From an uncultured Poribacteria bacterium (GTDB lineage: Bacteria > Poribacteria > WGA-4E > WGA-3G), in contig OX639973.1 in NCBI GenBank assembly GCA_951828385.1, positions 310,001 through 374,000 of the forward strand: a stretch of 64,000 nucleotides of DNA, in the 5' to 3' direction. The notes below the pieces were generated by a model, which did no database searches, was not told the DNA's origin, and saw only the letters and a program-made list of their open reading frames with translations. The position numbers and the translations under genes were made by a program. Positions within the stretch are counted from its first letter, which is position 1. The number at the start of each line of letters is the position of its first letter. This document shows positions 19,842 through 60,146 of the stretch, one piece after another.

Positions 19842-19998
19842 AAGAATTTGATGATACGAAGTGCTTAGAATTTTGTCAAATTAAAAACCGGAGTTGTCTG
19901 TTATCAGTTATGAGAAGTCCGCTGTCGGCGATAAAAGCTGGAATTTTGTTGACACACGGACGCAAATATGATTTACTATCTTTAAAAGGAGACACCCA

Positions 19999-26978: not shown

Positions 26979-27041
26979 AGGAGTAGTATACCCGCATTTA
27001 TGGAAAATGTCAAGAGTTTTTCAGAGATGGCGCAATCGGAG

Positions 27042-30000
27042 GTTTCTATTCCATACTGGTTCGATTAAAAGTATTTGGACAACAGAAAACATTATCACAA
27101 CCAAACGTGTTTCTATTCCATACTGGTTCGATTAAAAGCGATAAGCATCCGTTCCCAGGCTTGTTGTCGTAAAGTTTCTATTCCATACTGGTTCGATTAA
27201 AAGCCCGGATACAATATCCTCAACCCACAAATGCAGACCGGTTTCTATTCCATACTGGTTCGATTAAAAGGTTAGGTGCTGTGTAGAGGGAATCGACGAA
27301 ATGTTGGTTTCGATTCCATACTGGTTCGATTAAAAGCGCACGGTCGAATATGCGACAGGGATCAGCGATGGTAGTTTCGATTCCATACTGGTTCGATTAA
27401 AAGACCGAAGAACCCAAGCGAGAAAAGTTTTCGATCGACAGTTTCGATTCCATACTGGTTCGATTAAAAGTCAATCACAGGCATGATGCCGGGTAGCACG
27501 TTTTCAGTTTCTATTCCATACTGGTTCGATTAAAAGTCAAACAGTAGACGCTAACGACCGACTTGTATGGAAGTTTCGATTCTATACTGGTTCGATTAAA
27601 AGTTAGAGCGTCCATAGTCTCCTCCTATTCCTCTGCTTCGTTTCGATTCCATACTGGTTCGATTAAAAGCGAAGATAATGTTGTGCCTTTATCTCAGATC
27701 AGAGATGGTTTCGATTCCATACTGGTTCGATTAAAAGTGAAGGTTGCTCGCGCACAAACTCACTAAAAAACAAGTTTCGATTCCATACTGGTTCGATTAA
27801 AAGCCTCAAAAAAGCATACTGACCATTAGCGTTAGGAGGTTTCGATTCCATACTGGTTCGATTAAAAGTCTTGCTAACCTGAAACCAATACTCAGGGCTG
27901 GTCTCGTTTCGATTCCATACTGGTTCGATTAAAAGTGCTTGTCAACGCGTCCCCACGTCCAGGTGTGTCATGTTTCGATTCCATACTGGTTCGATTAAAA
28001 GGAACGTGGGTTTGAGTATCATGGCAGACCCGGTTTTGTTTCGATTCCATACTGGTTCGATTAAAAGTACGAGTTACCAGTTAAGAAAAGAGGTCTCTTT
28101 TACGTTTCGATTCCATACTGGTTCGATTAAAAGACAACCATAAAGATTTATGGTTGAATGTTAAAACATTCGTTTCGATTCCATACTGGTTCGATTAAAA
28201 GACAGCGTTTTTCCGTTGTGCGAGCGTATTGTAAAACTCGGTTTCGATTCCATACTGGTTCGATTAAAAGGCGCATGGGGCTTTTTTCTGTATCAGCGAG
28301 GGGGTAGTTTCGATTCCATACTGGTTCGATTAAAAGATTGACGATGGCAGTTTCCCTACGGGTGAAGCCACGTTTCGATTCCATACTGGTTCGATTAAAA
28401 GTGGATAACAGGGAACACGCTTTATGCGGCGTGTACAGTTTCGATTCCATACTGGTTCGATTAAAAGCTTCTATGGGTGGTTCTTTTTCAATGGGTTGGG
28501 CTTTGTTTCGATTCCATACTGGTTCGATTAAAAGTGCCCCCAACTAAAAGACCTACTTGATTTTCTGACAAAGGTTTCGATTCCATACTGGTTCGATTAA
28601 AAGTTGCGTCTCATGATCCAGTGCATTTTGCCGAGGACGTGGTTTCGATTCCATACTGGTTCGATTAAAAGCTTTCCGCATGAGATTTATGTTCCCATTG
28701 AAGGTGTGTTTCTATTCCATACTGGTTCGATTAAAAGACGTGGTGTTTCCATATCCAGAGGTAAAATATTCTCGTTTCGATTCCATACTGGTTCGATTAA
28801 AAGGGAACGCTCGCATTGAAGAATGACCTTGACATGATCGTTTCGATTCCATACTGGTTCGATTAAAAGAGGAGCGTCAATTCCGATTTTTTGATGAAGA
28901 GACGCGTTTCGATTCCATACTGGTTCGATTAAAAGCTATCGGATTCGCAAGTATGTTAACCCAAGTAAAGTTTCGATTCCATACTGGTTCGATTAAAAGC
29001 GTAGCTGCTGCCATCGTTACTCGATTTAGTGACATGTTTCGATTCCATACTGGTTCGATTAAAAGCTTACCGCCTTTACCATCACCCCGCAATGTCGAAT
29101 ACGTTTCGATTCCATACTGGTTCGATTAAAAGCCGAACGCTGTTCAAACCCCGTACTCCGTATCTCATGTTTCGATTCCATACTGGTTCGATTAAAAGGT
29201 TCCCTGTGAAAGACGTGATTGTGCTGCCCTGTGTGTTTCGATTCCATACTGGTTCGATTAAAAGTGATAGAGTTCCGGTGGCATCGGGATCATCGGCATC
29301 TGTTTCGATTCCATACTGGTTCGATTAAAAGGAAATTTAACGAAAACTTGGCGAATGCCGGGTATAATGTTTCGATTCCATACTGGTTCGATTAAAAGAG
29401 GTTACAGAGCGTCCTGTGCCACTACGCGGTATAGTTTCGATTCCATACTGGTTCGATTAAAAGTCAAAGAACGGCTTGGTGCGCGTATCAAGAAATGCGC
29501 GAGTTTCGATTCCATACTGGTTCGATTAAAAGCAAGAAGTAAAATCTATCAAAACACGTATCAACGAATGTTTCGATTCCATACTGGTTCGATTAAAAGC
29601 CCCCGACACATGAGACACCCGAAACACACTTTTCGCGTTTCGATTCCATACTGGTTCGATTAAAAGCATCACGGATGCGATATGTGCCAAGCGGTTTGTT
29701 CACAAGTTTCGATTCCATACTGGTTCGATTAAAAGCAACTCGCTTGGAAAATAGGGTAGTAGTATAAATTAGTTTCGATTCCATACTGGTTCGATTAAAA
29801 GGAGTGTGAGTTGCATTGTTCTTCCTTGTTAGGGGTTGTTTCGATTCCATACTGGTTCGATTAAAAGGTGAGTGTTATGACCAGTAAAGTGTTTTATCCG
29901 AAAATGTTTCGATTCCATACTGGTTCGATTAAAAGCCAACAGATGCAGGTTTATGTGACTGTTGCAGATGGTTTCGATTCCATACTGGTTCGATTAAAAG

Positions 30001-33000
30001 TCAGTATCCAGGCGGTTTGTCTCGGTTCTTGACGTGTTTCGATTCCATACTGGTTCGATTAAAAGTTTGAGTCGATGATAACGAGTAAAGTGCTATCAAG
30101 TTTGTTTCGATTCCATACTGGTTCGATTAAAAGATATTCAGGCGAACCGAGATGAAACTTACATTGAGTGTTTCGATTCCATACTGGTTCGATTAAAAGT
30201 ATGTGATGACCGTTCATTGAAGTATGCTGTTCAAGGTTTCGATTCCATACTGGTTCGATTAAAAGCAGAACGCCCCCGCATTTCCAAAGTGTTCAGAATT
30301 GTTTCGATTCCATACTGGTTCGATTAAAAGTCCTCAGCGACGACATCCTCAAGACTGTTATACGTCCGGTTTCGATTCCATACTGGTTCGATTAAAAGGG
30401 AAGGTAGAGCAACACCAAGAGCAACACCCGAAATGCGTTTCGATTCCATACTGGTTCGATTAAAAGGGAAGATGTCCTACCGGGACCGCTTGCTGAACTC
30501 AGTTTCGATTCCATACTGGTTCGATTAAAAGGGCTTTGATTGCGATTGACGAACCCGATCCGATTTCGTTTCGATTCCATACTGGTTCGATTAAAAGTCG
30601 GGGCGAATAGAATATGTCGCTGAAGCCATCATGTTTCGATTCCATACTGGTTCGATTAAAAGCGTATTCTTTCCATACCCATTGCTCCGCGATGAAAGTT
30701 TCGATTCCATACTGGTTCGATTAAAAGTCAACAGCGAAGGTTTGACCGACTGCCGGTAATTCTATGTGTTTCGATTCCATACTGGTTCGATTAAAAGAGT
30801 GAATGACAGGATACGCGAAGCATGCTTACAGAGACGTTTCGATTCCATACTGGTTCGATTAAAAGCCAATAACGCCTTGCGTGCCTCTGTAAGCGGATGC
30901 GGGTTTCGATTCCATACTGGTTCGATTAAAAGCCTTTCACGGACACGCGGCTTTACTGGACGAAGTAGTTTCGATTCCATACTGGTTCGATTAAAAGTCG
31001 CTCGTGTTCAAAACGTTTATGACAACTGTCTTGTTTCGATTCCATACTGGTTCGATTAAAAGTCCCCAAACCATCACCGACACCCCCCGATAAAAACGTT
31101 TCGATTCCATACTGGTTCGATTAAAAGGCGTCAACATTATAACCCGCAGTGGTAGAACTTCCGTCGTTTCGATTCCATACTGGTTCGATTAAAAGTGTCT
31201 TGTAGGTCTCTTTCTCCAAATCGCTTGCACTGTTTCGATTCCATACTGGTTCGATTAAAAGTACCGTTACGCTCCACCGTCAACCGATGAAGGAACGGTT
31301 TCGATTCCATACTGGTTCGATTAAAAGCCTCAGCACGAATCCGCGCATTTTCCGCTTCAATATCAAGACGTTTCGATTCCATACTGGTTCGATTAAAAGG
31401 GACCCCTTTAACCGAGAGAGTGAGCTTAGCAAAAGAGTTTCGATTCCATACTGGTTCGATTAAAAGGGAGCAGATTGATGGGTAGTTTCAAGAAAGATGT
31501 CTTGTTTCGATTCCATACTGGTTCGATTAAAAGTTCCCCATAGATCAAGAATTGCTTGATGTAAGAGATGTTTCGATTCCATACTGGTTCGATTAAAAGC
31601 ACCAAGCGTTGCCAAATTGCTGAAAATCCCAGCACGCTTGTTTCGATTCCATACTGGTTCGATTAAAAGTTCAGACATAGGAAATAATCATCTTTTTCAG
31701 AAGTGTTTCGATTCCATACTGGTTCGATTAAAAGGCAGACCCGCAAGCCTAAGTCCCCGCCCGGACCCGGTTTCGATTCCATACTGGTTCGATTAAAAGC
31801 AACACGTTTTCTATACTGCTGTGCTTTATACAACCGCTGTTTCGATTCCATACTGGTTCGATTAAAAGTTATTAAATGAGGTGTTGCGTGCGTAAAAAGT
31901 AAAGTTTCGATTCCATACTGGTTCGATTAAAAGCGTATAACACTATCAACGAGGTCGAGGAGAAGATGAGTTTCGATTCCATACTGGTTCGATTAAAAGT
32001 TGATGATTGCATCAAAGAATTGTTAAAAGAAGCGTTTCGATTCCATACTGGTTCGATTAAAAGCAGGAGACATCAGACGGTTCTTTGGTATGTGCTTATG
32101 TTTCGATTCCATACTGGTTCGATTAAAAGTAGGTAGTGTAAAATTAAGATTGAAGTTAGCGTTGTTTCGATTCCATACTGGTTCGATTAAAAGTCCCACC
32201 CCGCTTGGCAAATTAAATCTACGTGTGAGTTTCGATTCCATACTGGTTCGATTAAAAGCTCGGTATAACGATAGATGGCAATGATTTGTATGTTGGTTTC
32301 GATTCCATACTGGTTCGATTAAAAGGAGAACAGGGAAACTCGATCAAAGTCGTCGATATAGAGTTTCGATTCCATACTGGTTCGATTAAAAGTGCACAAG
32401 CACGTATGCAAATCCCACTAAGTCGAAGTTTCGATTCCATACTGGTTCGATTAAAAGCCTGACGGCACTACCTCAACGCTGGAATCACACAGGTTTCGAT
32501 TCCATACTGGTTCGATTAAAAGCGGTGTTGACGGACCCGATGGACCCGAATTGGGTATTTCGTTTCGATTCCATACTGGTTCGATTAAAAGTAGAGTCGT
32601 ATCTTGCTTTGTCCATGTCCACACCATTGTTTCGATTCCATACTGGTTCGATTAAAAGCTTGTTGCACAGGCGTTGACGAAAGAGGAACAGGACAGTTTC
32701 GATTCCATACTGGTTCGATTAAAAGTTTTTCGACCTCATTATGACACTGGCACGCTGGTTCGTTTCGATTCCATACTGGTTCGATTAAAAGCGTGCGGGT
32801 TGTTGATGACTGCAGCCGTTCTTCATGTTTCGATTCCATACTGGTTCGATTAAAAGGGTGCGTTCGAGGCACTCTATCACTATCTGACTGCGTTTCGATT
32901 CCATACTGGTTCGATTAAAAGTCAACGGATGTGAGAATACCCATAGGCGTTTTTTTGAGTTTCGATTCCATACTGGTTCGATTAAAAGTCGTCAACGCCC

Positions 33001-36000
33001 CGTCCAAGTGCGCGTCTTGGTGCTTGGTTTCGATTCCATACTGGTTCGATTAAAAGCCACAGACATTCTTGTTTGACATCACTGGTGAAGTTTCGATTCC
33101 ATACTGGTTCGATTAAAAGGATACAAGGGTTGTTTTGATCTCCATTGATTATGTTTGTTTCGATTCCATACTGGTTCGATTAAAAGGTTATCGCTCCGAT
33201 GGCATGCGATAAACGCCATAAACCCGGTTTCGATTCCATACTGGTTCGATTAAAAGAAAAAGCGATAATCAACTCAACCTAACACAACCGAGTTTCGATT
33301 CCATACTGGTTCGATTAAAAGATAACCCAGTGTACAACGCTCTGGAACGTGTAGGTGTCGTTTCGATTCCATACTGGTTCGATTAAAAGGCACATCATAA
33401 TGGCAGCACAGATTCAGCGCGGTTTCGTGTTTCGATTCCATACTGGTTCGATTAAAAGCTCCGAATGGTTCATAGACAGTGATGTTGCGTTTGGTTTCGA
33501 TTCCATACTGGTTCGATTAAAAGAAAACTCTACAGATAGAACAATAGAAAGAACCATGAGGTTTCGATTCCATACTGGTTCGATTAAAAGATGGCAATGA
33601 ATGAACGCTGGACTGACGCGAACACGTTTCGATTCCATACTGGTTCGATTAAAAGTCTATCGTTTGGGCGGCTCGGTATGTGTGATGATGTGGTTTCGAT
33701 TCCATACTGGTTCGATTAAAAGAAGGCGATAAATTTCAAAGCATGCGCGACAGCGAGAGAGTTTCGATTCCATACTGGTTCGATTAAAAGTCTAAAAGGA
33801 TTTGGCTCTTGATTTGCATTTGTTACATGTTTCGATTCCATACTGGTTCGATTAAAAGAGAATAAGGTCAAACTTCACACTATCTTTCGCATTGAAGTTT
33901 CGATTCCATACTGGTTCGATTAAAAGGCAAGTATTTTCAAACGCTAACAACCCAACCGCCAGGTTTCGATTCCATACTGGTTCGATTAAAAGTTCAGATA
34001 CAAGATCGTCAAGTCTAAATCGTCTCGGTTTCGATTCCATACTGGTTCGATTAAAAGTCGCATTCCAGTAAGGCGGTGTCCATGCGGTCTCATACGTTTC
34101 GATTCCATACTGGTTCGATTAAAAGTATCGGCTGGAGGCAAATATGAAACTCCAAGAGATTGGTTTCGATTCCATACTGGTTCGATTAAAAGCTTTGTGA
34201 TTGGGTAAGCGTGCATAACGCTGATACGTTTCGATTCCATACTGGTTCGATTAAAAGAAAACTATCCATATATGAGACTCCTGCCTGTAGATAAGTTTCG
34301 ATTCCATACTGGTTCGATTAAAAGTTTCATGCTTACGCTTAAGCCGTCGATTGACAAAAGCCGTTTCGATTCCATACTGGTTCGATTAAAAGGATCATAG
34401 AGAGGTTTTGGTATGTTCAAGTGCCATGTTTCGATTCCATACTGGTTCGATTAAAAGTTGTGCTGTGTGATGGACAACTTGGCGGATTGTTGAGTTTCGA
34501 TTCCATACTGGTTCGATTAAAAGACGATCGCCGAGATGACAGAACAAGACGCACAGCAACGTTTCGATTCCATACTGGTTCGATTAAAAGTTTAACGAGG
34601 TTATCAAGAGACGCGGTGCATACGCAAGTTTCGATTCCATACTGGTTCGATTAAAAGTCCATAAGTCTTTCCATTCATAGTCTCCTTTCGCCCGTTTCGA
34701 TTCCATACTGGTTCGATTAAAAGAGATGGAACGCAGTTATTGATACTCAACGACACAGAGTTTCGATTCCATACTGGTTCGATTAAAAGAAGCACGGTTA
34801 CGACAAAATACAGGGGATGCTCTTCGGTTTCGATTCCATACTGGTTCGATTAAAAGGCTAACCGAAGTGCCAGAACCGCTTTCCCATAGTGATGTTTCGA
34901 TTCCATACTGGTTCGATTAAAAGCGCCGACCTGAGCATGTCGTAAAACTGCTCATTTTTCGGTTTCGATTCCATACTGGTTCGATTAAAAGTCATTCCAG
35001 TTCATTGGATGTCCCTTTTTTCCTTTACGTTTCGATTCCATACTGGTTCGATTAAAAGTTGACGATCGGGTTACATAACCGCTGATGGATATGGTTTCGA
35101 TTCCATACTGGTTCGATTAAAAGTCCCAACGATTTGCTCAAGTGTCTCGTCAGGTATATGTTTCGATTCCATACTGGTTCGATTAAAAGTTGGCCCTTGG
35201 GGTGCAGCTGGCGGTGCGTTTCTTGGGTTTCGATTCCATACTGGTTCGATTAAAAGACATGCACGTTTACTCCACGACATCACCACCAACACGGTTTCGA
35301 TTCCATACTGGTTCGATTAAAAGACAGAGGCACAGCAGCAGCAAGCGCGCAATAATATGTTTCGATTCCATACTGGTTCGATTAAAAGACGCGCACAATT
35401 GGGAATTCATACTTTCCATTACACAGTTTCGATTCCATACTGGTTCGATTAAAAGTTGAAAGTCTTACAAATGAAGGAAAATCTTATCATGATAGGTTTC
35501 GATTCCATACTGGTTCGATTAAAAGTCTCCGCTTCGGTAAACGTGTACTCTCTTTTGAGGTGTTTCGATTCCATACTGGTTCGATTAAAAGTCTATGCCC
35601 TGCACGTGTGCTTTCGTGCCATCACGCTGTTTCGATTCCATACTGGTTCGATTAAAAGTCGCTGAGGCTCAGTCTGAGGTTTACGGTTGACATTGTTTCG
35701 ATTCCATACTGGTTCGATTAAAAGCGTAAGCAAGTCCGATAGGCTGGTCGTTTGCTGCAGCAGTTTCGATTCCATACTGGTTCGATTAAAAGCGCAAGCA
35801 GATGCAATTGCAGCGAACACAGCTAAAGTGTTTCGATTCCATACTGGTTCGATTAAAAGACGTTCTATTTGAACGTCGACTGCTGATGTATATCCGTTTC
35901 GATTCCATACTGGTTCGATTAAAAGTCTATCACAGAATAACCGAATCGGCGCGTCTCTACTTGTTTCGATTCCATACTGGTTCGATTAAAAGGGAAAGAA

Positions 36001-45452: not shown

Positions 45453-45716
45453 CTACAATAGGTTTGTCGCGGGATTTTTATCTATCCCCATAACCTCCTT
45501 ATTCATCCAGCGTGCGTCGCGAAGTTGGTAGATGATGATGGAATCTTTTTCTGGATCAGTGATGGCTGCTAATCCTGATTTGACACGAGCGAATTGTGCT
45601 TTGGTTAATTGTCCTTCAAAGACGGAGTTCTGAACCCAGTTGAGATGTTGCCGGAGATATTTGCATACTTTTGCGACGCGTTTGACTTCGATATCGTAGA
45701 CGAGAATGATGTACAT
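45453..45716 (-). CDS. cas2: CRISPR-associated endonuclease Cas2
   Basis: An 87-residue protein starting MYIILVYDIEVKRVAKVCKY. The ferredoxin-like fold begins with a beta strand ending in the metal-site Asp (VYDI). NWVQNSVFEGQLTKAQF is the typical second motif. With Cas1 it forms the spacer-integration complex. The start at 45716 is fixed by a near-perfect ribosome site (AAAGGAGGT, 7 nt before ATG). An upstream in-frame extension is made of tandem repeats and is not protein. It is the last gene of the cas operon, next to the leader, and the 185-bp gap to cas1 holds a 41-42 bp tandem repeat. Confidence 0.95.
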   Translation of the reverse strand: MYIILVYDIEVKRVAKVCKYLRQHLNWVQNSVFEGQLTKAQFARVKSGLAAITDPEKDSIIIYQLRDARWMNKEVMGIDKNPATNLL

Positions 45717-45901: not shown

Positions 45902-46897
45902 CTACCACCACGGTCGGAGTGCCTGATAGGTTTCCATTTCAACGAGATGTTTTATGAGTTTGTAACACTCTAATCGGATGAGTCGTTGATAGGAGACGTG
46001 CCGTTTTAACCGCCGATGTGATATGGTCTGTTTGAGTTGTTCGTCGAATTCGGCGATAAATAGTTTGCGTCCGCTTTCGTTGAGGTAGCAGCCATCAACA
46101 TTTGTCTCGAAATGCTTTGATTCATCGAGCTGCCGCCGGTTGAATAGGCGGAAGATGATACGGTCAATAATGAGTGGCTTGAATATTTCGGCGAGATCGA
46201 GGCTGAGTGAGAAGCGTCGGTCACCGGGCTCGTGGAGAAAACTGATCGTTGGGTTGAGTTGCGTGCGATAAATTTCGGTGAGGCACGCGGCATACATCAT
46301 TGAATTTCCGAAGGAGATGAGCGCGTTAATGGGATTATCAGGTGGACGACGAACACGCTTCTCTAACGGTGTTTTTAGGGTCAAGATGGTGTTGAATGCA
46401 GTGTAATAGAGGTCTCGGATAGAGCCTTCGTATCCCATCAACTCGTTTGTGTTCTTGGCATTTCGGCTTTCAGCGAGGATGGTCTCAATCGCCTCAATTT
46501 GTGCGGTGCAATCCTTATCACGGTTGGTGTGATAGCGTAGGATTCGGAGCATGTTGAAGACGGCAGACTCAACGAACTCGTGTGCGATGGTCATGCGTTT
46601 GGCTGGTTTTTCATAGTGCTGTACCTGTTTGACGAGTAGGGAGCCAGAGTTTAGATATTCACGAGGATAGTAACTGCCGGAATAGTACCCGTAATAATTG
46701 AATACGTGGAACGCTATTTTCTTTTGTGCGAGGAAGTTGAGCAGTTTGGTGTTGAGGTCCAGTTCGCCGTAGAAGTAGAGTGCGTCGATGTCCTCGACGG
46801 GGATGGGTATGCGTGAGGCTGCTTCTGGTTCGAGGTAAATCGTGTTGTCTTTCCGGCGGAGTCTGCCGGGCTGCGTGATGTAGTAGTTGCGGGACAT
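45902..46897 (-). CDS. cas1: CRISPR-associated integrase Cas1
   Basis: A 331-residue Cas1. Catalytic residues are visible: Glu157 in GYEGSIRDLYY, His222 in SFLHEPGDRRFSLSLDLAE, and Asp234/Glu237 in the same stretch. The start MSRNYYITQPGRLRRKDNTI is the usual N terminus of the I-B type. ATG at 46897 is chosen because GGAGG lies 10 nt upstream; the ATG at 46915 overlaps that site. It catalyses spacer insertion at the leader end. It is 55 bp after cas4 and part of the cas operon. Confidence 0.96.
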   Translation of the reverse strand: MSRNYYITQPGRLRRKDNTIYLEPEAASRIPIPVEDIDALYFYGELDLNTKLLNFLAQKKIAFHVFNYYGYYSGSYYPREYLNSGSLLVKQVQHYEKPAKRMTIAHEFVESAVFNMLRILRYHTNRDKDCTAQIEAIETILAESRNAKNTNELMGYEGSIRDLYYTAFNTILTLKTPLEKRVRRPPDNPINALISFGNSMMYAACLTEIYRTQLNPTISFLHEPGDRRFSLSLDLAEIFKPLIIDRIIFRLFNRRQLDESKHFETNVDGCYLNESGRKLFIAEFDEQLKQTISHRRLKRHVSYQRLIRLECYKLIKHLVEMETYQALRPWW

Positions 46898-46952
46898 AAT
46901 TGGTTTTCCTCCCATGGTTGGCTTACGGCACGGCGGAGCGTGCCTGCTACCT

Positions 46953-47462
46953 TTAACTCCAGCAGAGCTCCTGATAACTACAAGACTTGCAGATTTTCAT
47001 ATAATCAGCATGCGGTGGCGTTGGCAATGCCGCTATTTCGCCGACTTTTTCAATGGCGGTTTCGATTTCCTGTTCTCTTTCGGGTGTGAGTTGCACTTCG
47101 GTGGTACGTCTTTGGCGCGGGTAGTTGATAACGCCTTTCCTATTAGTTACGCCTTTTTGTTTGAGGAGATAGAGGTAATAGCAGAGCTGCATGATGTGTG
47201 CGGTCTCCATTGCGGGGCCGGATTTGATGTCGTGGAGAACGCCGTGTTTGTCAACGAAGTCTATCTTTACAAGATTGTCAATGTCCCATTCTCTACGTTT
47301 TTCGCGTGGATAACTTTCGTCGTGGAGGAGTTGTCCGAGGTCAACGCGTTCGGAGGTATGCTCCATTTCGAGATGGTTTTGGTAGAACCAAAGTTTACGC
47401 GTGCAAATATAGAGGTAGTTAATGGCGGTGCCGGTGATGTTGGGGGCGTTTGAGTTTTGCAT
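46953..47462 (-). CDS. cas4: CRISPR-associated exonuclease Cas4
   Basis: A 169-residue Cas4 that helps Cas1-Cas2 choose and trim prespacers with the right PAM. The four Fe-S cysteines are Cys20 (LYICTRKLWFY), Cys158, Cys161 and Cys167 (CKSCSYQELC). The RecB-like nuclease core shows HDESY, VKIDFVDKHG and HDIKSG, the last in the place of the usual E-x-K motif. AAGGAG precedes the start. It is 27 bp after cas3. Confidence 0.93.
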   Translation of the reverse strand: MQNSNAPNITGTAINYLYICTRKLWFYQNHLEMEHTSERVDLGQLLHDESYPREKRREWDIDNLVKIDFVDKHGVLHDIKSGPAMETAHIMQLCYYLYLLKQKGVTNRKGVINYPRQRRTTEVQLTPEREQEIETAIEKVGEIAALPTPPHADYMKICKSCSYQELCWS

Positions 47463-47489: not shown

Positions 47490-49937
47490 TTATAGAAGAT
47501 TTGGGATAGCGTCCTCATCAAGTTCAAGACCAACTTCAAATGTATAACGCGATTTAATGGCTTTAAAACGAATTTTGATTTCTCGTGTTCTTCCTTGGCG
47601 GTTCGTCAATTTTTGCGTTGCTTCTCGCGATAGTATTTTTTCTTTTACACGTGCGATGTGGAATATCCACTCTGATACGCTGAGATAATGTGACTTGTAT
47701 TTGCGATAATCTTCTTCAACGCATTCAACAAATTCATAAGGAACAACATCATAAGTTTGGTAATTCTTCTTTCGGATAACAACGTGTCCTTCTTCTTCAA
47801 CATCCTCACCATAATTATCTTGTGGTTTTTTGCCAAATACTACATCTGTATCAATGGCTATTGCAAGTTCGGAATGCATAAGCGAAAGGCTTTCTGGGTA
47901 TACAACATTCACCCAATCACACGCATTCTGAAAAGTATAATGCTGCCCAAAGACTTCCCATGAACGTTGCAAAATATCTAAGTCGTAGGGCAGACACGCC
48001 TTTTCATTCTTGTAAGGTGGAGCAATGTACATCCGATGAACATATCCATCCTGATTTGGAGACTCTCCTTTTCTGTGAAGTCTGCCCCCCCGTTGAACAA
48101 TTGAGTCAATCGGTGCGATTTCAGAATACATCACGTCTGCGCTAATGTCTAAACTGAGTTCACTCACTTGGGTAGACACAAGTATGCAGGGTTCAGTGTT
48201 GTAAAAATCACGGCATTCTAATGCGTTAATATCCGCTTCCTTTCTATCTTTCGGCTTCTTGAAAAGGGCACGGATTATTTTTTCTTTTTCGTTTCGGTGT
48301 TTACTAATGAACCCAGAATGATAACAAATCAAATTTTCATCAATACCAGAATCTGCTAAAGTCTGATAGATTTTCTTAGCACGTGCAACTTGGTTGACAA
48401 AGATAATTTGCCTTCTATCAATGTTTTGCCGAATGAGTTCCAGCAGTTCGTCTGAAACGGATTTATCATCCTCATCAATCAAGATATCAGTTAACCGCTC
48501 TATTTCAAAAGGTGTTTTGGGTTTTGAAGTGTTTTGGATAACTGCTGGGGCGCGCTGAAATTTATAGGGTTGATTTGTGACCAATGTATCTAACTCGTTA
48601 TGAACAGCACACGGGATTGTAGCGGTCATCACGAGATGTGGAACCTGCAATTCGGTTAACCTTCGCATAGTTTCTGCAATTGCCCCCAAAGTGTGCTTTT
48701 CATAATAGTGGATTTCATCAAAAACCACCAATGAAGAAGCGATGTTAGAGAAAGCTCTATCTGCGAATCTATAGCCGTGGTAGAGACTCATAATCAGGTG
48801 ATCAACTGTGGAAATAGTTATCGGTTTGGCATAGATACTATTCTCGAAGACTTGTTCCATAATTAAGTTTTCCATTTCATCTTCTTTAGTATCCTCTTCG
48901 TTAGTTTCTTGTGTCCTTTGACGAAGGAATTCAGATGCGTCGCCGTGTGTAATTCCGACAAGTTCCTCGGGTATTGCATACTTTTCGTCGTCAGTTAAAT
49001 CTTTGCTGAGATTGTTTGCAGTGAATTTTGTCGGCAACGTAAAAATAATCCGGTCAATACGATTTTCTCTTAGCAACTTTTGTGCTAAGAGCAAGGCAGC
49101 AGCAGTTTTTCCTTCGCCACATCCTGCGTTTAAAATGATCCTCTCTGAGTCTTGCCGAAGAATATCCTGTTGCATCTCATTTGGTGTAGGAACAAAGGAA
49201 TGATCGCGCAACTGTTCATTACTGTAGAATGGAAACTGGTTTTTAATAGCAGTGAGTTCTTCAGGAGTTAAGTTGGTCGCATAAGGATTTCCAATAGTAC
49301 CACCTTCAGGAGCGTTTTTACTTGCGTAAGCGTCTGAGGTAGTTAGCACATTTAGCATGAGCGAGTAAAGTGCCTTAAACCGCGAGTCTGCTTGCTTCTT
49401 AATGACCTTTTTCAATTTATCTATTGCTTGACAGATTTTGTCAAACGGAAGTCTTTCTAATTGCCATGACCTCAGCTGAAAATTGGGCTCTAACTGGCGG
49501 AAATAGTCAAAATGAGTGTTAATGTAATCAACTGGTAAAGTGGCATTTTGCCATCGGAAATTATCCTCTCGGAATGCATCTTTATGAAGTTGTCCATGAT
49601 GCGCAAGGACTGCAAACATGGCTGCATAAAGTGGGCTATTGTCGAAAGAGCGTGGAGCATTGCTTGTCATAAGCCCAATTCCAAAAGATGGAAGTGCGTG
49701 TGTGATTCTGTTTCCATTGTCTCGGATATAATCCTGCCACTCGTCAGATGCTTTCCCAATGTCATGACACCAGACAGCAAAACGTAAAGCCTGCCTCACC
49801 TCTTGCCAATTCCAACCGTATCTTTGGCACAATTGACGTAGAAATGTTTCGCGGCGTTCTATAATCTCATCACAAACTGTTAAACAGTCCTGAATATGTC
49901 CCCGTAAAGTTTGATTGGTTTTACCGAGAATTTCCAT
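47490..49937 (-). CDS. cas3: Cas3 nuclease-helicase (HD plus DEIH helicase)
   Basis: An 815-residue Cas3 that degrades target DNA after Cascade binding. The N-terminal HD nuclease shows His14 and the HD pair in WCHDIGKASDEW (about 57-68). The helicase has a Walker A variant (LNAGCGEGKTAAALL), motif II DEIH in LVVFDEIHYYE, VMTATIP (motif III) and DSIVQRGGRLHRKGE (motif VI). So nuclease and helicase are fused in one protein, as usual for I-B. I use ATG at 49937, which overlaps cas5 by 17 nt; an in-frame TTG at 49961 is the alternative. Confidence 0.93.
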   Translation of the reverse strand: MEILGKTNQTLRGHIQDCLTVCDEIIERRETFLRQLCQRYGWNWQEVRQALRFAVWCHDIGKASDEWQDYIRDNGNRITHALPSFGIGLMTSNAPRSFDNSPLYAAMFAVLAHHGQLHKDAFREDNFRWQNATLPVDYINTHFDYFRQLEPNFQLRSWQLERLPFDKICQAIDKLKKVIKKQADSRFKALYSLMLNVLTTSDAYASKNAPEGGTIGNPYATNLTPEELTAIKNQFPFYSNEQLRDHSFVPTPNEMQQDILRQDSERIILNAGCGEGKTAAALLLAQKLLRENRIDRIIFTLPTKFTANNLSKDLTDDEKYAIPEELVGITHGDASEFLRQRTQETNEEDTKEDEMENLIMEQVFENSIYAKPITISTVDHLIMSLYHGYRFADRAFSNIASSLVVFDEIHYYEKHTLGAIAETMRRLTELQVPHLVMTATIPCAVHNELDTLVTNQPYKFQRAPAVIQNTSKPKTPFEIERLTDILIDEDDKSVSDELLELIRQNIDRRQIIFVNQVARAKKIYQTLADSGIDENLICYHSGFISKHRNEKEKIIRALFKKPKDRKEADINALECRDFYNTEPCILVSTQVSELSLDISADVMYSEIAPIDSIVQRGGRLHRKGESPNQDGYVHRMYIAPPYKNEKACLPYDLDILQRSWEVFGQHYTFQNACDWVNVVYPESLSLMHSELAIAIDTDVVFGKKPQDNYGEDVEEEGHVVIRKKNYQTYDVVPYEFVECVEEDYRKYKSHYLSVSEWIFHIARVKEKILSREATQKLTNRQGRTREIKIRFKAIKSRYTFEVGLELDEDAIPNLL

Positions 49938-50589
49938 TGAATATAATGTTCCGTCCTTCAATTGGATACGCGAGGCGTGGTTCGCTTAGCGCAACCGATT
50001 CACCTTCCGGTGGAATAGAGTAAATTTGCCGATGCATCTGCCACTGTTCTCTTGATGCTTCGGTATAACGAGAAGGCATGTTCACCAATTGACATCCTTC
50101 CACAAAACCTGGGATAATTGAATGAATTTGTTGCATTTCAGCCGGTTCGCATTCAACAATACGCGGGTTAATAATATCAACGACATCATCCGATTCACCA
50201 AGATAAAGAGGCCAGTGCGGGGCAGTAAGTGCTTGTTGTGCTTCGATAAGCAGCGATTCATCAGTTTTAAGGTAGATAGTAGAGCGAACCTGTATTAATT
50301 TTTGACGCATCAATATCGTTCTGTCAAATAATGCATTTCCCTCTCGTGCAGGTTTAAAAATCTTGCTAAACGTCTCAAGGAATTTTCCTTTAGATTCTAT
50401 AACGAGGGAGATTTGCCAATTATCTCTGTCCGCATTCCAATCTTGCGGTTTACCTCTTGCGGCATTTAACATGCCGTAAAGTGTTGGTGGCGGCGGGATA
50501 GGATATGTCACATGAACGTTCACCGCCTGTGGCTGCTTAAATGATGCCCAAAATGGACAAATTACACCAAAGGTAAGTATCTTTTCCAT
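49921..50589 (-). CDS. cas5: Cascade subunit Cas5
   Basis: A 222-residue RAMP protein that caps the 5' end of crRNA in Cascade. The N terminus MEKILTFGVICPFWASFKQP and the following YPIPPPPTLYGMLNAARG are typical of Cas5 of the I-B (Cst) group, with the first beta strand and the hinge that contacts Cas8. GGAG precedes the start by 7 nt. It follows cas7 by 52 bp and overlaps cas3. Confidence 0.92.
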   Translation of the reverse strand: MEKILTFGVICPFWASFKQPQAVNVHVTYPIPPPPTLYGMLNAARGKPQDWNADRDNWQISLVIESKGKFLETFSKIFKPAREGNALFDRTILMRQKLIQVRSTIYLKTDESLLIEAQQALTAPHWPLYLGESDDVVDIINPRIVECEPAEMQQIHSIIPGFVEGCQLVNMPSRYTEASREQWQMHRQIYSIPPEGESVALSEPRLAYPIEGRNIIFNGNSR

Positions 50590-50641: not shown

Positions 50642-51592
50642 TTATTCAGAAAGTGCCTCTTGCACGTGTGTTGTGAGATTTTTCAAGGCACGAAGTGGAT
50701 TGGCTCTCTCTATCTCAAATTCATCCAAAATATGAGTCAACGCGTCATCGTTTTGGATCACCCCTGGCGTAAATCCGCAGAAAAGTTTTGCACCATCATC
50801 CTCTAAATCCTGCAATACGACCCGCAGTGTTTCCGTGTTAACATCTCCATCATCGTCAAGCTCTAAAGCCCTTAAGGTTCTATGTGAATAACGGGTGTGG
50901 GTTGACGCTATGAAAATGTCTGGGGCAAGCGATGCAGCATTCCGAGCTTGTTTTGCAAAATCAGTAAGACCACCAATCGCCTCTAAAACGGCAATAGTCC
51001 GTTCTATCTTCTTTTCCTTTTCAATCTCAACCGTGGTTTCCCATTCTTTGAATGTAGCGTTTTTGCCTTTACCATCATATTGTGGTGTAATCACTTTGCC
51101 GATGTTCGCAACATCAAGTGACAACCCAACGCGATAAACATTTGCCATTATTTGTACATAGGCGATGCGCTGATCCGCAGTTTGTTTACCCTCTTTTTCA
51201 ATCCCGCTCATGCGAATTAGCAAATCTGTGACCTTATCAGAGACAATCTGACCGAGCGCAGGTGTAGCTTTGATGGGTGACCATCGTCTGTCAAAACCTT
51301 CACCAGATTTCGGATTGAGAAAACCGAACAGATCACAGAGCCAACACTCTGCAACTTTGGTACAAGGTGTTTCAGGTACACAAAGAAATACACCCGGATT
51401 GTTCCGATGAATCGCTTCGCGTAATGCATGCCGCACCGATTGACCGGAGGCGTAAGGTTTTCGTCCGTTGTCATAGGTTTTCAGTTCTGTGACGTTACCA
51501 CCGCCACCTTCACCAGCATTGAGGTTGCTTAAGTCGGTTTTGCTAAGCCAAACCATTGCAACACCTTTCAAATCATTCGTGTTATTAGTCAT
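50642..51592 (-). CDS. cas7: Cascade backbone subunit Cas7 (Cst2/DevR family)
   Basis: A 316-residue protein forming the filament that coats the crRNA spacer. The beginning GVAMVWLSKTDLSNLNAGEG followed by a Gly-rich stretch, and YASGQSVRHALREAI, are marks of the Cst2/DevR branch. Two Cys pairs (FLCVPETPCTKVAECWLCDL) may bind zinc. ATG at 51592 is chosen because GGAGGT lies 8 nt upstream; an upstream in-frame extension lies inside cas8. The start overlaps the end of cas8 by 8 nt. Confidence 0.93.
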   Translation of the reverse strand: MTNNTNDLKGVAMVWLSKTDLSNLNAGEGGGGNVTELKTYDNGRKPYASGQSVRHALREAIHRNNPGVFLCVPETPCTKVAECWLCDLFGFLNPKSGEGFDRRWSPIKATPALGQIVSDKVTDLLIRMSGIEKEGKQTADQRIAYVQIMANVYRVGLSLDVANIGKVITPQYDGKGKNATFKEWETTVEIEKEKKIERTIAVLEAIGGLTDFAKQARNAASLAPDIFIASTHTRYSHRTLRALELDDDGDVNTETLRVVLQDLEDDGAKLFCGFTPGVIQNDDALTHILDEFEIERANPLRALKNLTTHVQEALSE

Positions 51593-53300
51593 TTTGACTA
51601 CCTCCATTATCAGATTTAGATTCAAAAACCTTAGCGTTGTAAGCGGAAAGACAGACATAAGTGGAAAGCGTCTCAGCGATCTCCTTGTAATTCTTATCTG
51701 TCAGTTCGTTCAAAATGTGGTCAACACGTTCTTGCTTAACCGGAACCGCTTTTTTAGCATCTTCACCTGTACTAAACTTATACAAGCGGAACATGACTAT
51801 ATTGAGAGCATCTCTGAAAGCATTTACACTGGAAATGTTGAACAGTTTACTAACGAGCGTTACATCTTTATAAAAAGTAGTTCCGATTGTGGTACCTAAG
51901 GCACGCAAATCTTCACGTAATTTTTCATCTAACACTTGATTTACCTCCAAAAAATGGTTTACAAAAACACGAAGCAGCCTTATAGGATGTGGCGCACCTC
52001 GCTGTAGAGAAATCAAAACAGCATCCTGATGTTTCCATAGGTTAAACAACGCAACCTTCATCAAGGAAGGGGTACTGGTTGCAATGGCTTGGCTTAATTG
52101 TCCGATTGCATTTTCACCGTCAGGGGTTCGGGATGACATCCTAACAAGAATATCTGGGACAAGTTTAATTTGTGTGGGTTTGAAATCAATAGGTTCAATG
52201 AATTTATACAATCGCGTATCCACATCAACAGTATGGAAATTTTGAAAAATCACATTTTGTCCTTTACTGAATGGGATAATTACCCAACGTGTCAGCTGAC
52301 TGACAGATTCCGCAGTTTGTTCCACAAGTGGTGAAAAATCCCATTCACCTTCGCCCTCTTCGTCATCGGATGGTGTAAATTCATAAAAAATGTTATGGAA
52401 TAACGAGATAGCAAGTGAATATCGGTTGGAAACTCGCATTTGAGTCCGTAGGTTGGTATAAGGGTAAAGTCCTTTTTGCCTTAAATCATCTTTTAAATTG
52501 TCTTCCAATCTTTCATGAACTTTAGCTAACAACTCAATATCAGGAATATCGGGTAGAATCAACTTTGTTAATTGTTTAGCGGGGTTATAAACAAAGGGAA
52601 CATTTTCGTCAAGAGTAGCACAGAGGCTAAGCAGATAGTAAACCGAACCCACTTTAGGTACAACAGCACTCCCGTAAAATCCCCGAACTTTTGTGTTTTG
52701 ATGCTTGCTAGCAAAAGGGTTCACCACTTGAAGAAGATCTTTAGATTTAGTGCAAGACCTACCCGACATCTCGCAAACTTTTTTACCTCCTCCGCCTTGC
52801 CAATCTTGAATAAAGTCTCGGATGTTTTGTTGTTGCTTTGTTCTAAACGTATCGGCATTATTACCAATACCAACAAAATTAAACCTCATCTGAATGAGGG
52901 ACAAAGTGTCCTTAATCGTGCTGCCTTTCCACTCTTTTTTAATGAGTGCGCGATCATCTTCAGTAGTTTGTATCCGCGATCCATCTCGATCAATATAACC
53001 ATGCTCATCATAACTTAACTTTGCGCCTTCAAGGATTTTAGCACCACGACTCAGCCAGAAAAGGCTATTCCATCTTTCCATGAACCTCTGATTCAACCAT
53101 TCCTCAAACTTTTCAAGATTTGCTACATCTATTGTAATAGTTGCCTCATGCGGTGTTAACGCTAACTTGCAATCGAAAGGCGTAGAGCGTAATTCCGCAC
53201 CAAAACTCACAATCCCGAAATCTGTCCATGGATTTCCGGTCAGTTCCAATACCAGTGATGAAGTGTCGCTTAAATTGAATTCCAACTGTTGGTTTTCCAT
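51585..53300 (-). CDS. cas8b1: Cascade large subunit Cas8 (Cas8b1/Cst1 type)
   Basis: A 571-residue large subunit that reads the PAM. LELTGNPWTDFGIVSFGAEL near the N terminus is the signature of the Cst1 group. A KKVCEMSGRSCTKSKD segment near residue 190 looks like the partial zinc-binding loop of this family. The rest is helical with an acidic linker (SDDEEGEGEWD) at about 325. AAAGGAGG lies just before ATG. Its own promoter lies in the 73-bp gap after cas6. The name rests on motif recall. Confidence 0.85.
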   Translation of the reverse strand: MENQQLEFNLSDTSSLVLELTGNPWTDFGIVSFGAELRSTPFDCKLALTPHEATITIDVANLEKFEEWLNQRFMERWNSLFWLSRGAKILEGAKLSYDEHGYIDRDGSRIQTTEDDRALIKKEWKGSTIKDTLSLIQMRFNFVGIGNNADTFRTKQQQNIRDFIQDWQGGGGKKVCEMSGRSCTKSKDLLQVVNPFASKHQNTKVRGFYGSAVVPKVGSVYYLLSLCATLDENVPFVYNPAKQLTKLILPDIPDIELLAKVHERLEDNLKDDLRQKGLYPYTNLRTQMRVSNRYSLAISLFHNIFYEFTPSDDEEGEGEWDFSPLVEQTAESVSQLTRWVIIPFSKGQNVIFQNFHTVDVDTRLYKFIEPIDFKPTQIKLVPDILVRMSSRTPDGENAIGQLSQAIATSTPSLMKVALFNLWKHQDAVLISLQRGAPHPIRLLRVFVNHFLEVNQVLDEKLREDLRALGTTIGTTFYKDVTLVSKLFNISSVNAFRDALNIVMFRLYKFSTGEDAKKAVPVKQERVDHILNELTDKNYKEIAETLSTYVCLSAYNAKVFESKSDNGGSQND

Positions 53301-53373: not shown

Positions 53374-54126
53374 TTAGACTTCTGCCATGCCGAAACCTGC
53401 GCTGTTTTTGTCGCCGAAACCGCATTCGTATCCGATCTGGATTAACGCAGGATTCCCTGTGACACGGAACGGACACATGATGCCTCTTATCTTGATGCCC
53501 TTGTAGTCTATGAGACGGGTGACGCGTCCTTGTCGCCTGTCGATATAGGCTTTGTCAAAGGCGAAAGTCAAGGTGTCGTCATGAGGGGCGCGACCGTGGA
53601 TTGCTTCGTGTTTGCGGATTAGGTTTTGACGGATGAGCCCAGGGAGCGCGGGATCGTCGGGCATGCAGTAGTGCATTACTTGTTTTCCATCTCGCTCGCG
53701 TTTTGTGGACATCGTAATCGGAGAGAGACATCGAAAACGCATCTCTGGCCGAAAGCGAGGGATACGCGGTATTGTGACATCCCTGATGGGTAACTGACGC
53801 TGTCCAAGGGATAACTGTCCCTCGGTTAAGAGTGTGTCGGCGAAATGGGAGAGAAAGCGTTCTACTGGGGAAGAGACGTACCACGTTAACGTTGAACGGA
53901 AATGGATATTGTCACCAGTGATGCGTCTGCGTTCCGCCATGAGTTGTGAGAAGGTGAAGAGTTTGAACCGTTTTTCTGCAGCGCGGTAGCCTTCCTCGTG
54001 GAGAAAGGATGCGTATTCAGGGTCGGATTCGGCGAGGAAACGGTAGATTATGCCTGCAAGCAGATGATTGTAGTTAACGGGGAGCGTGATGCCGTCCCCA
54101 ACGTCGGCGAGAATTTGGATTCGCAT
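53374..54126 (-). CDS. cas6: CRISPR repeat-processing endonuclease Cas6
   Basis: A 250-residue protein that cuts the pre-crRNA within each repeat. MRIQILADVGDGITLPVNYN is followed by HLLAGIIYRFL, where His21 is the likely catalytic His and Tyr28 may assist. The C terminus GYECGFGDKNSAGFGMAEV is the Gly-rich loop typical of Cas6. AAAGGAGGT precedes ATG. It is the first gene of the cas operon, directly after the cas promoter at 54196-54224. Confidence 0.93.
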   Translation of the reverse strand: MRIQILADVGDGITLPVNYNHLLAGIIYRFLAESDPEYASFLHEEGYRAAEKRFKLFTFSQLMAERRRITGDNIHFRSTLTWYVSSPVERFLSHFADTLLTEGQLSLGQRQLPIRDVTIPRIPRFRPEMRFRCLSPITMSTKRERDGKQVMHYCMPDDPALPGLIRQNLIRKHEAIHGRAPHDDTLTFAFDKAYIDRRQGRVTRLIDYKGIKIRGIMCPFRVTGNPALIQIGYECGFGDKNSAGFGMAEV

Positions 54127-54170
54127 AAATACCTCCTTTAGTGATTGAGCATCACTTCTTGCATAGCGTT

Positions 54171-54190
54171 ATTAGGTAGTATAACAATGG
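54171..54190 (-). promoter_or_regulatory. Putative Cascade target site in the start of the cas transcript
   Basis: On the minus strand CCA (54190-54188) is followed by TTGTTATACTACCTAAT (54187-54171). The spacer of the degenerate mini-array starts TTGTTTTACTACCTAAT: 16 of 17 agree and the one mismatch is at position 6. The site begins at about +1 of the cas promoter, so a bound Cascade complex would block it. Confidence 0.6.
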
Positions 54191-54195
54191 AAATA

Positions 54196-54224
54196 ATTAT
54201 ACCATTATAAAAAATCATTGTCAA
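54196..54224 (-). promoter_or_regulatory. Consensus promoter of the cas operon
   Basis: TTGACA (54219-54224), 17 nt, TATAAT (54196-54201) on the minus strand. A second TATAAT lies inside the spacer (54204-54209). Start near 54189, 60 nt before cas6. Confidence 0.85.
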
Positions 54225-54226
54225 AT

Positions 54227-54316
54227 TTTTTTATTCCAAACTGGTTCGATTAGAACAAAACTTGTGCTAATTAGGTAGTAAAACAAGTTTCTATTCCATA
54301 CTGGTCTGATTAGAAT
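54227..54316 (-). CRISPR. Degenerate repeat-spacer-repeat unit, candidate CreR-like regulatory RNA
   Basis: Two 30-nt sequences resemble the array repeat. 54287-54316 (first in transcription order) keeps GTTTCTATTCCATACTGG and ends CTGATTAGAAT. 54227-54256 reads TTTTTTATTCCAAACTGG and then TTCGATTAGAAC. The spacer between them (54257-54286) is 30 nt, shorter than in the array. On the minus strand the first repeat would give a normal GGAATAGAAAC crRNA handle. The unit ends 3 bp before the cas -35 box, and its spacer matches the cas transcript start (54171-54187). No clear promoter precedes it; TTGAAA near 54345 is only a weak -35. The spacer ends can also pair with each other (AAACTTGT with ACAAGTTT). 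Confidence 0.65.
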
Positions 54317-54876
54317 CTGCTACATTTGTTTAAGACGTTCCTTTTCAAAAAAGGTTTAAGGCAGTAGGACTTACGCAAAATTGAGCCCGGACACATGCGT
54401 TGCGATGGCACCAGATGAGTTAGCCATCATCAGTTAGGAGAATAATTGTGATACCACGAGGCGGGCGACACAACCATTGTGCTTATTGATGTAATTTGTA
54501 ACCATATCACATTGCCATCCTTGCACTGATCGAAGCAGTACCAAGCTCCGTGATAAAATTTCATAGCAAATTTCATAGCAGCTTCATAGCACACTTCACT
54601 AAAACCGTCAAAAACACAGTTGTGGTTTAGGTTTATGGCACTTCATAAATTTCATAGTTGTTCGATTTGCTATGAAAACTGTGAAATTTCATACGCAGCA
54701 TTTCGCTAAAAAGATGTCCGATCCAATAATTTCTTAAAATTGAATGGCCCTTTAGAAAATGGGCAATTGGGTTGATTTTTTGTTAGGTAAACGGTTAGAA
54801 TTATAGCATGAAAAAAATAATCCCGACGATTTTGATAGTTTCATGGTTAACGTGTTTTTCGACGAGGATCGCTATA
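54317..54876. other. Intergenic region without a supported gene
   Basis: It contains a single end of the AGGACTTACGCA element (54366-54384), a short hairpin CCTTTT/AAAAGG near 54338, and several copies of TTTCATAGC/CATAGCAAA phrases (about 54545-54695), some in inverted order. A short frame from 54808 opens with a signal-like stretch but overlaps the end of the next gene and is not convincing. Confidence 0.5.
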
Positions 54877-58295: not shown

Positions 58296-59117
58296 TTATT
58301 TCCGCTTGATGTCTGCCCAAGTCGTTGTCAATTTCCCAGCGGGTTCAACAGGGGTCAGCGGAGCGATTTCATCAAAGAAACCCTGCTGATCCGTTGCGTC
58401 TTTCGGGTAAATCGTAACAGCGTCATGGGTTGCGTCATCAAAGTGCAAGTTGAAGTATGCGGAACCGCCGCCTTCACCACACCGATAAAGCAGCACGTTG
58501 CCACCTTTTTGCAATTCGACCTCGACGTTGTGAAGAATCGTTCGTGCGGCACCTGTCCATCTGGAGTTGTTGTACCATTTTTCGCCGTTAATCCAGATTT
58601 GGGCATGGTCATCGTGTGCAGGGGACATGATGGCGGTCATAGCACTCGGCGCGTCAATAACGATAACAGCATAAGTTTCGATGTCATCAACCGGACCACC
58701 TCTGTTCATGTTGTTGCCGTCCGCAGGATCAATTTCAAAGACCGTCCAAGCACGCGTACCGCCGTGGTCGGGCCATTCCACATCAACGCCCTGTGTCATG
58801 AGCAAACCTGACATGGTTGAAAGCGAGACCTGGGTAATTTTATCACCGGTCCCTAAGGCTATGTGGTCTCTCTCAGCCTCATCGCCAAAGCCATCACTAT
58901 TTTCATAGTTACCATCGGGTCCATACCACTTGGTAATCCAGTTTTCGTTGTCAGCGTGATCTTCTCTCAGATCGTCACCGTTGGGGTCTGGATCTGCTAA
59001 GAGTGCGTCTCCTTCCAAGGGACCGCCTTGGAGGAGATCAGCTGCAAATACATGGTGTGAGCCGCTGATAACGAGTGCGAAAACAATCGCGAGTGTAAAA
59101 ATACCAAATTTTTTCAT
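58296..59117 (-). CDS. Secreted protein with a jelly-roll-like domain, paralog 1
   Basis: A 273-residue protein with a signal peptide (MKKFGIFTLAIVFALVISGS, then HHVFA) and a mature part of the pattern GGPLEGDALLADPDPNGDD, HADNENWITKWYGPDGNYEN, then SPAHDDHAQIWINGEKWYNN and GGNVLLYRCGEGGGSAYFNL. The late part (a hydrated Asp/His-rich loop, then INGEKW and VLLYR) resembles PA14- or CBM-like beta-sandwich domains that bind sugars at the cell surface. That is a comparison of pattern only. It is clearly paralogous to the gene at 59313-60146 and has its own promoter and terminator. Confidence 0.7.
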   Translation of the reverse strand: MKKFGIFTLAIVFALVISGSHHVFAADLLQGGPLEGDALLADPDPNGDDLREDHADNENWITKWYGPDGNYENSDGFGDEAERDHIALGTGDKITQVSLSTMSGLLMTQGVDVEWPDHGGTRAWTVFEIDPADGNNMNRGGPVDDIETYAVIVIDAPSAMTAIMSPAHDDHAQIWINGEKWYNNSRWTGAARTILHNVEVELQKGGNVLLYRCGEGGGSAYFNLHFDDATHDAVTIYPKDATDQQGFFDEIAPLTPVEPAGKLTTTWADIKRK

Positions 59118-59236
59118 TTTTTGTAATTCCTTTTTGGGTTAAGAGTTAAGAATACTAAGCTGCACTAAAATGCCTCTTAGAACTCTTTAAATACACGCAG
59201 AAATGCTGAAAAATGTTTCAAACATTCCAAACAATT

Positions 59237-59274
59237 GTTATAGCATTTTCACAAATATTTGTCAAATGCTATAA
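59237..59274 (-). promoter_or_regulatory. Promoter of the 58296-59117 gene inside an AT-rich cruciform
   Basis: TTGACA (59260-59265), 17 nt, TATAAC (59237-59242) on the minus strand. The same DNA is an 11-bp perfect inverted repeat, TTATAGCATTT (59238-59248) with AAATGCTATAA (59264-59274), with CAAATATTTG palindrome in the middle. Both boxes sit on the arms. Confidence 0.6.
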
Positions 59275-59312
59275 TAATCACAAATCGTGGGGGTGTAACC
59301 CCGATTTACGAT

Positions 59313-60146
59313 TTATCTCCGCTTGATGTCCGCCCAAGTCGTTGCCAGTTTTCCAACAGGTTCAACATCAAGGAAGCCCTGGATTTCGTCAAAGAAGCTC
59401 TTCTGGTCGTTCGATTTATTGGGATAGATTTTAACGGCATCATGGGTATCATCATCAAAATGGAGGTTAATATACGCGGAGCCGCCGGATTCACCGACCC
59501 GGTAAAGAACAACATTGGCACCTTTTTTCAACTCTACTGTTACGTTGTGAAGAACCGTGCGTGCGGCACCCGTCCATCTGGAGTTATTGTACCATTTTTC
59601 GCCGTTAATCCAAATTTGGGCGTGATCGTCATGTGCAGGGGACATGATGGCTTCTCTTGCAACAGGCGAGTTAATGACGATAATTCCGTAAGTATCAATA
59701 TTATCAATAGGTCCGCCCCGGTTCATATTGTTGCCATCTGCCGGATCAAGTTCAAAGACTGTCCACTCTCGCGTACCGCCGTTACCTGCTTTCCACTTCA
59801 TATCGAATGATTTTGTGCGGTTCAGTCCTGCAACTGTTGAAAGTTCAACTTGTGTGATCTTACCGTTAGTCCCTTCATCGATAAGATCTTTCGGAGCAGA
59901 AGCCGGAAAACCGCCGTTGTTTTCATAGTTACCATCGGGCCCATACCACTTGGTAATCCAGTTTTTGTTGTCAGCGTGACTTTCCCGCTGACCGTCAACG
60001 TTGGGGTCTGGGTCTTTGAGGAGCTCGTCCGCCTTCAAGGGACCCCCTTCGATATCGTTTGCTTGCGCGAATGCAGAAGATGAGGTTCCGATAACCATCA
60101 GGAAACTCATCGTGATTACGAATGTCAACTGGTAAAAAATTTTCAT
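59313..60146 (-). CDS. Secreted protein with a jelly-roll-like domain, paralog 2
   Basis: A 277-residue tandem paralog of the previous gene with a signal peptide (MKIFYQLTFVITMSFLMVIG) and the same motifs: HADNKNWITKWYGPDGNYEN, SPAHDDHAQIWINGEKWYNN, GANVVLYRVGESGGSAYINL. Divergence is highest near residues 75-105. Both copies end in TWADIKR, so the C terminus is conserved. It is transcribed from its own promoter at 60270-60298 and has a leader of about 117 nt. Function unknown; a surface or matrix protein is plausible. Confidence 0.7.
   Translation of the reverse strand: MKIFYQLTFVITMSFLMVIGTSSSAFAQANDIEGGPLKADELLKDPDPNVDGQRESHADNKNWITKWYGPDGNYENNGGFPASAPKDLIDEGTNGKITQVELSTVAGLNRTKSFDMKWKAGNGGTREWTVFELDPADGNNMNRGGPIDNIDTYGIIVINSPVAREAIMSPAHDDHAQIWINGEKWYNNSRWTGAARTVLHNVTVELKKGANVVLYRVGESGGSAYINLHFDDDTHDAVKIYPNKSNDQKSFFDEIQGFLDVEPVGKLATTWADIKRR

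Follow-up and report, generated by a model that had tools for sequence, protein, structure and literature searches.

Small RNAs termed CreR, which regulate cas genes, were reportedly described by Liu et al. (2023) in Cell Host Microbe. According to recent reviews, CreR RNAs occur in CRISPR-Cas types I-B, I-E and V-A and show partial complementarity to promoters (PMC13131331, PMC12737573). The rules of guide reading are known from related systems: in CreA, changes at positions 6 or 12 have no effect and a change at any of positions 1-5 or 7-11 abolishes function (PMC8501985), and in the type I-B system of T. maritima a mismatch at position 6 is likewise without effect, the PAM is YYD, including CCT, and the repeat-adjacent AAC is rejected (PMC13199841). 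Guides pairing over 26 nt or less give repression without cleavage in one type I-B system (PMC10551041), and in a second one neither interference nor priming was left at 24 nt (PMC10989794).

The window analyzed here, a stretch of 64,000 nucleotides from an uncultured Poribacteria bacterium, carries on its minus strand a cas operon in the order cas6, cas8b, cas7, cas5, cas3, cas4, cas1, cas2, followed by the main CRISPR array; Cas protein profile matches assign the resident system to type I-B. We identified cas6 at 53374-54126 (NCBIfam TIGR01877, E 7.6e-42), a weak match to cas8b at 51585-53300 (PADLOC Cas8b, E 1e-9), cas7 at 50642-51658 (TIGR01875, E 1.2e-23), cas5b at 49921-50589 (TIGR01895 at E 2e-21, short of its cut-off, and PF09704, which passes), cas3 at 47490-49961 (TIGR01587, E 1.9e-70) and cas4 at 46953-47462 (PADLOC Cas4b, E 4.8e-57), while cas1 (45902-46915) and cas2 (45453-45716) are named from ORF and place only. 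The effector genes available to a guide, encoding Cas6, Cas8b (weak match), Cas7, Cas5, Cas3 and Cas4, are found intact in the same genome. The main array (45195-27042, minus strand) is very large, comprising 272 spacers and 273 nearly all identical copies of the repeat CTTTTAATCGAACCAGTATGGAATCGAAAC. Protospacers that could show the PAM were sought for the array part at 27000-34900 in phage records and, in viral contigs, for two spacers on the leader side; none was found. Elsewhere in the window, at 58296-60146, lie two tandem related genes that share DNA blocks with 72-87% identity and encode secreted-looking proteins of ~275 aa.

Outside the main array, ~100 bp upstream of cas6, the minus strand contains a mini-array whose two repeats are decayed copies of the resident repeat. 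The degenerate repeat R1 ATTCTAATCAGACCAGTATGGAATAGAAAC (54316-54287) agrees with the main repeat at 25 of 30 positions and ends in GAAAC; it is followed by the 30-nt spacer TTGTTTTACTACCTAATTAGCACAAGTTTT (54286-54257), the putative guide, and by the degenerate repeat R2 GTTCTAATCGAACCAGTTTGGAATAAAAAA (54256-54227), which agrees at 24 of 30 positions and has its 3' end decayed to AAAAAA. The cas operon promoter lies just behind it and has the perfect form TTGACA-17-TATAAT (54224-54196, 12/12 consensus; TTGACA at 54224-54219, TATAAT at 54201-54196). The sequence CCA (54190-54188), which resembles a PAM, precedes the predicted guide target TTGTTATACTACCTAAT (54187-54171) just past the -10 box, at the expected transcription start; AGGAGG and then cas6 are located downstream. 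Over positions 1-17, spacer and target differ at position 6 only (16/17), and identity past position 17 is at background level. These comparisons bear out the preliminary description with regard to the repeat-spacer-repeat unit at 54227-54316, the extent of the match with CCA ahead of it, and the consensus promoter, though the gap between unit and promoter is 2 bp and not 3 bp as it had given. Its remark that position 6 goes unread in type I effectors agrees with the findings for both CreA (PMC8501985) and T. maritima I-B (PMC13199841).

As to the expression of the unit, the preliminary description had seen no clear promoter. This holds in the window, where a promoter scan returned no sigma-70 consensus hit at 54317-54356 and where we read by eye only a putative weak promoter or leader of the mini-array on the minus strand, around the element GAACGTCTTAA, which is common to two relatives (G048 and G082). 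The caveat loses weight in view of four other relatives: a leader promoter resembling that of the main array (TTGACA...TATAAT) precedes the mini-arrays of G079 and G061, and those of G031 and G036 have TTGACA or TTGACT upstream, followed by TAAAAT. A second caveat, that the spacer ends can pair with each other, is weakened as well, as the hairpin is nothing unusual; z values range inconsistently from -2.9 to +1.0 and energies are like those of ordinary array crRNAs, and we rejected the idea that the unit exists for the sake of this hairpin. A search against Rfam gave no match.

A chance origin of the match was rejected. Over positions 1-17 without 6 and 12 (15 positions), the window pair scores 15/15, a value that none of 3,000 shuffled spacers and none of 3,000 shuffled regions attained; none of the 272 ordinary array spacers of the same genome comes near this match to the promoter, the best of them scoring 12. 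Across the 6.66-Mb genome, the only sites with zero mismatches to the motif are the spacer and the target themselves, and at two mismatches or fewer there are 15 sites, the same number as for a reversed control pattern.

To place the unit in an evolutionary context, 85 genomes of the phylum were searched for cas6, which 55 of them have; upstream regions were read, and this was complemented by a pattern search for repeats with a promoter behind them and by a filtered scan of all loci for self-matches. Reading and pattern search revealed mini-arrays that match the promoter next to them in G048, G079, G061, G036 and G082, and the filtered scan added G031, so that, together with the genome of the window (G000), seven genomes share the same position and architecture. 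Their targets, TTGTTATACTACCTAAT (window), ATGTTATGTTTAATAAT, ATGTAATTTTGAGTAAT, ATGTAATGTTGCGTAAT, GTATAATGTTTAATAAG, TTGTTATGTTAAGTTAT and TAATAATGTTGAATAAT, each lie a short way past a -10 box, with CCA or CCT in front, from which we infer a CC PAM for the resident system; CCA/CCT fits the YYD of T. maritima I-B, and the repeat end here is AAC, the sequence which that system rejects. In the order of the targets, the own-pair scores are 15, 15, 14, 15, 14, 14 and 15 of 15 (102/105 in total), as against 7-12 of 15 for cross pairs, except between G079 and G061, which have near-identical spacers. When the pairing of spacers and promoters was permuted, 2 of 5,040 arrangements were as good as the own pairing, the tie being the swap of these two spacers. 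The match spans 16-17 nt, and up to 22 nt in G082.

The mismatches within positions 1-17 are {6}, {6,12}, {6,8,12}, {6,12}, {6,12,17}, {6,12,15} and {6,12} in the same order. Thirteen of the 16 mismatches fall on position 6 (7/7 pairs) or 12 (6/7 pairs); the per-locus odds of such placement multiply to 5e-13, a guide value and not a probability, given that the loci share ancestry. At positions 1, 3, 5, 9, 11 and 13, spacer and target have changed in step. Position 6 is A in all seven targets and T (six) or C (one) in the spacers, while the neighboring read positions co-vary. Co-variation of mini-array and promoter, which the preliminary description had set beforehand as a check, is therefore present: the seven genomes differ in sequence, and each is matched within itself.

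Most relatives with cas6 showed no such mini-array, and the unit is thus dispensable. In one case, G066, the promoter of the window is closely kept (TTGGCAATAATTTTTTATAATGGTATGAT), with ACA and not CCA at the PAM position and with differences at seed position 3 and later positions; the 270 bp of contig upstream contain no recognizable repeat and are unrelated in sequence. This single natural control, in which the PAM-like motif and the seed have decayed where the mini-array is not recognizable, speaks for the guide function proposed below. An eighth pair is likely split over two assemblies, G057 and G045. The G057 contig ends just past the -35 box, at an apparent insertion-sequence end, and the other end of this insertion-like sequence, together with an 8-bp duplication, opens the G045 contig; read across the junction, the two yield the promoter TTGACA-17-TATAAT and the site CCT-ATGTGATGTTGATTAAT, to which the G057 spacer ATGTGTTGTTGTGTAAT fits apart from positions 6, 12 and 13. 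This pair was left out of the seven-pair count on account of its two different assemblies. The G057 mini-array (L102, G057:C92:213892-214050) has three repeats and two spacers, and its leader-side spacer TTCGTTGATGCTGGTGTATGTGGTATCTGTGAATGGTG shows 3-7 mismatches over 37 positions to the conserved cas8b1 start of relatives, next to CCN, possibly a case of CRISPR-against-CRISPR targeting. In G062, a single repeat (L103, G062:C90, ~19833-19888) stands directly before the TTGACA-TATAAT promoter of a gene whose start resembles cas10, and neither a further repeat nor a spacer with a match was recognized there. A loose pattern scan of GTDB gave no convincing self-matching unit among the 81 sites checked, and a wider pattern search for the spacer type of the window returned ordinary array hits only.

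The genes behind the guided promoter vary among the seven genomes. The first one is cas6 in the window and in G048 and cas8b1 in G031, while in G061, G036, G082 and G079 (where it is broken) an ORF of 120-140 aa precedes the cas genes. Members of this protein family lie at L101 3599-3961, L148 277-684, L100 3425-3841 and L099 1851-1454. For this ORF, searches of Pfam, PADLOC, PHROGs and PDB gave nothing meaningful; G048 and G031, two genomes in which the guide-promoter match persists, yielded no such ORF. The sole mini-ORF in the leader of the window, ATGCAAGAAGTGATGCTCAATCACTAA (MQEVMLNH-stop, 54134-54160, minus strand), has no rare codons in tandem and resembles the final part of a protein gene that relatives keep whole (compared with L105 and L099); its ...EVMLNH-stop corresponds to AWKEVMLN in G082 and EETMFNH in G079.

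Thus, we propose that the mini-array is very probably a CreR-type guide by which Cascade would repress its own cas operon; this reading of the preliminary description is supported, at the level of sequence, by the seven co-varying pairs, by mismatches that sit at 6 and 12, and by the PAM-like CCA/CCT. The mini-array would be transcribed and cut by Cas6 at its degenerate repeats, and the resulting RNA, with a 5' handle supplied by the GAAAC end of R1, would be taken up by the type I-B Cascade of the same genome; R2 lacks the final repeat bases, and its cleavage is therefore not assured. Seed pairing at positions 1-5 and 7-11, continued to 17 beside the CC PAM, would direct Cascade to 54187-54171, where it would block RNA polymerase at the promoter of the whole cas6-cas8-cas7-cas5-cas3-cas4-cas1-cas2 operon. 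A pairing that ends at ~17 nt would not suffice for cleavage by Cas3, judging from the type I-B systems studied. The level of the operon would then be set by the Cascade that is free for the guide, and abundant crRNAs or an anti-CRISPR would relieve the repression. Expression, processing, repression and the sensing role are parts of the scheme that we infer from the genomic data.

Several other explanations were weighed against this autoregulatory reading. The shared 17 nt could stem from a local duplication, as the preliminary description had cautioned, or from a self-acquired spacer, in either case a functionless promoter piece copied into a dying array; the 99-bp gap between spacer and target, the sharp end of the shared stretch and the decay of the repeats all suit such an origin. 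This caveat is weakened by the relatives, as it fails to explain why seven genomes with differing sequences keep the match of their own pair in the same register, why mismatches gather at 6 and 12 instead of scattering, and why CC stands before every target; moreover, the low cross scores indicate pairs that diverged together, whereas a dead copy would drift apart, and we regard this origin as quite improbable. In type I systems, adaptation can be primed by guides that pair imperfectly, and the guide might accordingly act mainly by priming or cleavage at the promoter, as autoimmunity, and not by repression. The ~17-nt pairing is shorter than the 24-26 nt at which the two I-B systems cited above lose cleavage and priming, and thus fits repression and not cleavage, and a lethal conserved unit would be lost; this alternative is accordingly extremely improbable.

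A toxin-antitoxin module of the CreTA or CrePA type, in which the guide would repress a toxin expressed from the same promoter and make the cell dependent on Cascade, draws on the identical layout of H. hubeiense creTA upstream of cas (PMC8501985) and on the 120-140 aa ORF directly behind the promoter in several relatives. Against it, the match persists where this ORF is reduced to its last codons (the window) or was not found (G048 and G031), and the window has neither CreT-like tandem rare codons nor a terminator-like site before cas6; the promoter reads into cas. The cas effector operon is common to all seven genomes, which argues for CreR rather than a toxin module, and we consider the latter improbable. 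Its toxic-RNA form was ruled out, there being no CreT-like RNA and the leader reading into cas6 behind AGGAGG; CrePA was rejected for the window, where the promoter drives cas6 and the relatives' ORF is a remnant. As an extension of the CreR-type reading, we consider it unlikely, though conceivable, that the 6/12 mismatch is itself kept and not just tolerated, and that in some relatives the unit also guards the 120-140 aa protein as a CrePA-like toxin. If the mismatch is kept, the flipped-out base could serve to adjust how strongly the guide binds, or to keep cleavage or priming from occurring.

The predicted CreR-type unit would extend RNA-guided self-control of CRISPR to the Poribacteria, the mechanism itself being already published for CreR. 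It also provides natural evolutionary evidence for guide-target pairing, with the read positions co-evolving and two unread ones mismatched across seven genomes, and, with 272 spacers in the same genome, it lends itself to the question of whether such a regulator is titrated by a large pool of crRNAs. Compared with an ordinary array or a self-targeting spacer, the unit belongs to the same repeat family and has a spacer of similar length (30 nt as against 33-42 nt) but differs in its degenerate repeats, its ~17-nt match, the site in its own cas promoter and the co-variation. With CreTA, especially the creA of H. hubeiense, it shares a spacer-like sequence flanked by two degenerate repeats ahead of cas, the type I-B effector, a putative PAM beside the site and seed pairing that skips 6 and 12 (PMC8501985); it differs in that the promoter drives cas directly, without a CreT-like mini-ORF with tandem rare codons or a detected terminator, and in that the match exceeds the 11-nt seed of CreA. 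With CrePA, in which CreA represses a protein toxin (PMC12737573), it has in common a predicted guide-repressed promoter next to cas and, in several relatives, a first gene encoding a protein of ~120-140 aa, but only the last codons of that gene remain in the window and the gene was not found in two of the genomes. The closest counterpart is CreR as described in the reviews (PMC12737573, PMC13131331), with which the unit shares a crRNA-like element beside the cas genes, a type I-B effector, no need for a toxin and partial complementarity to the cas promoter, here with spacer pairing from position 1; by these descriptions we found no mechanistic difference, and the new aspect is the host group, Poribacteria.
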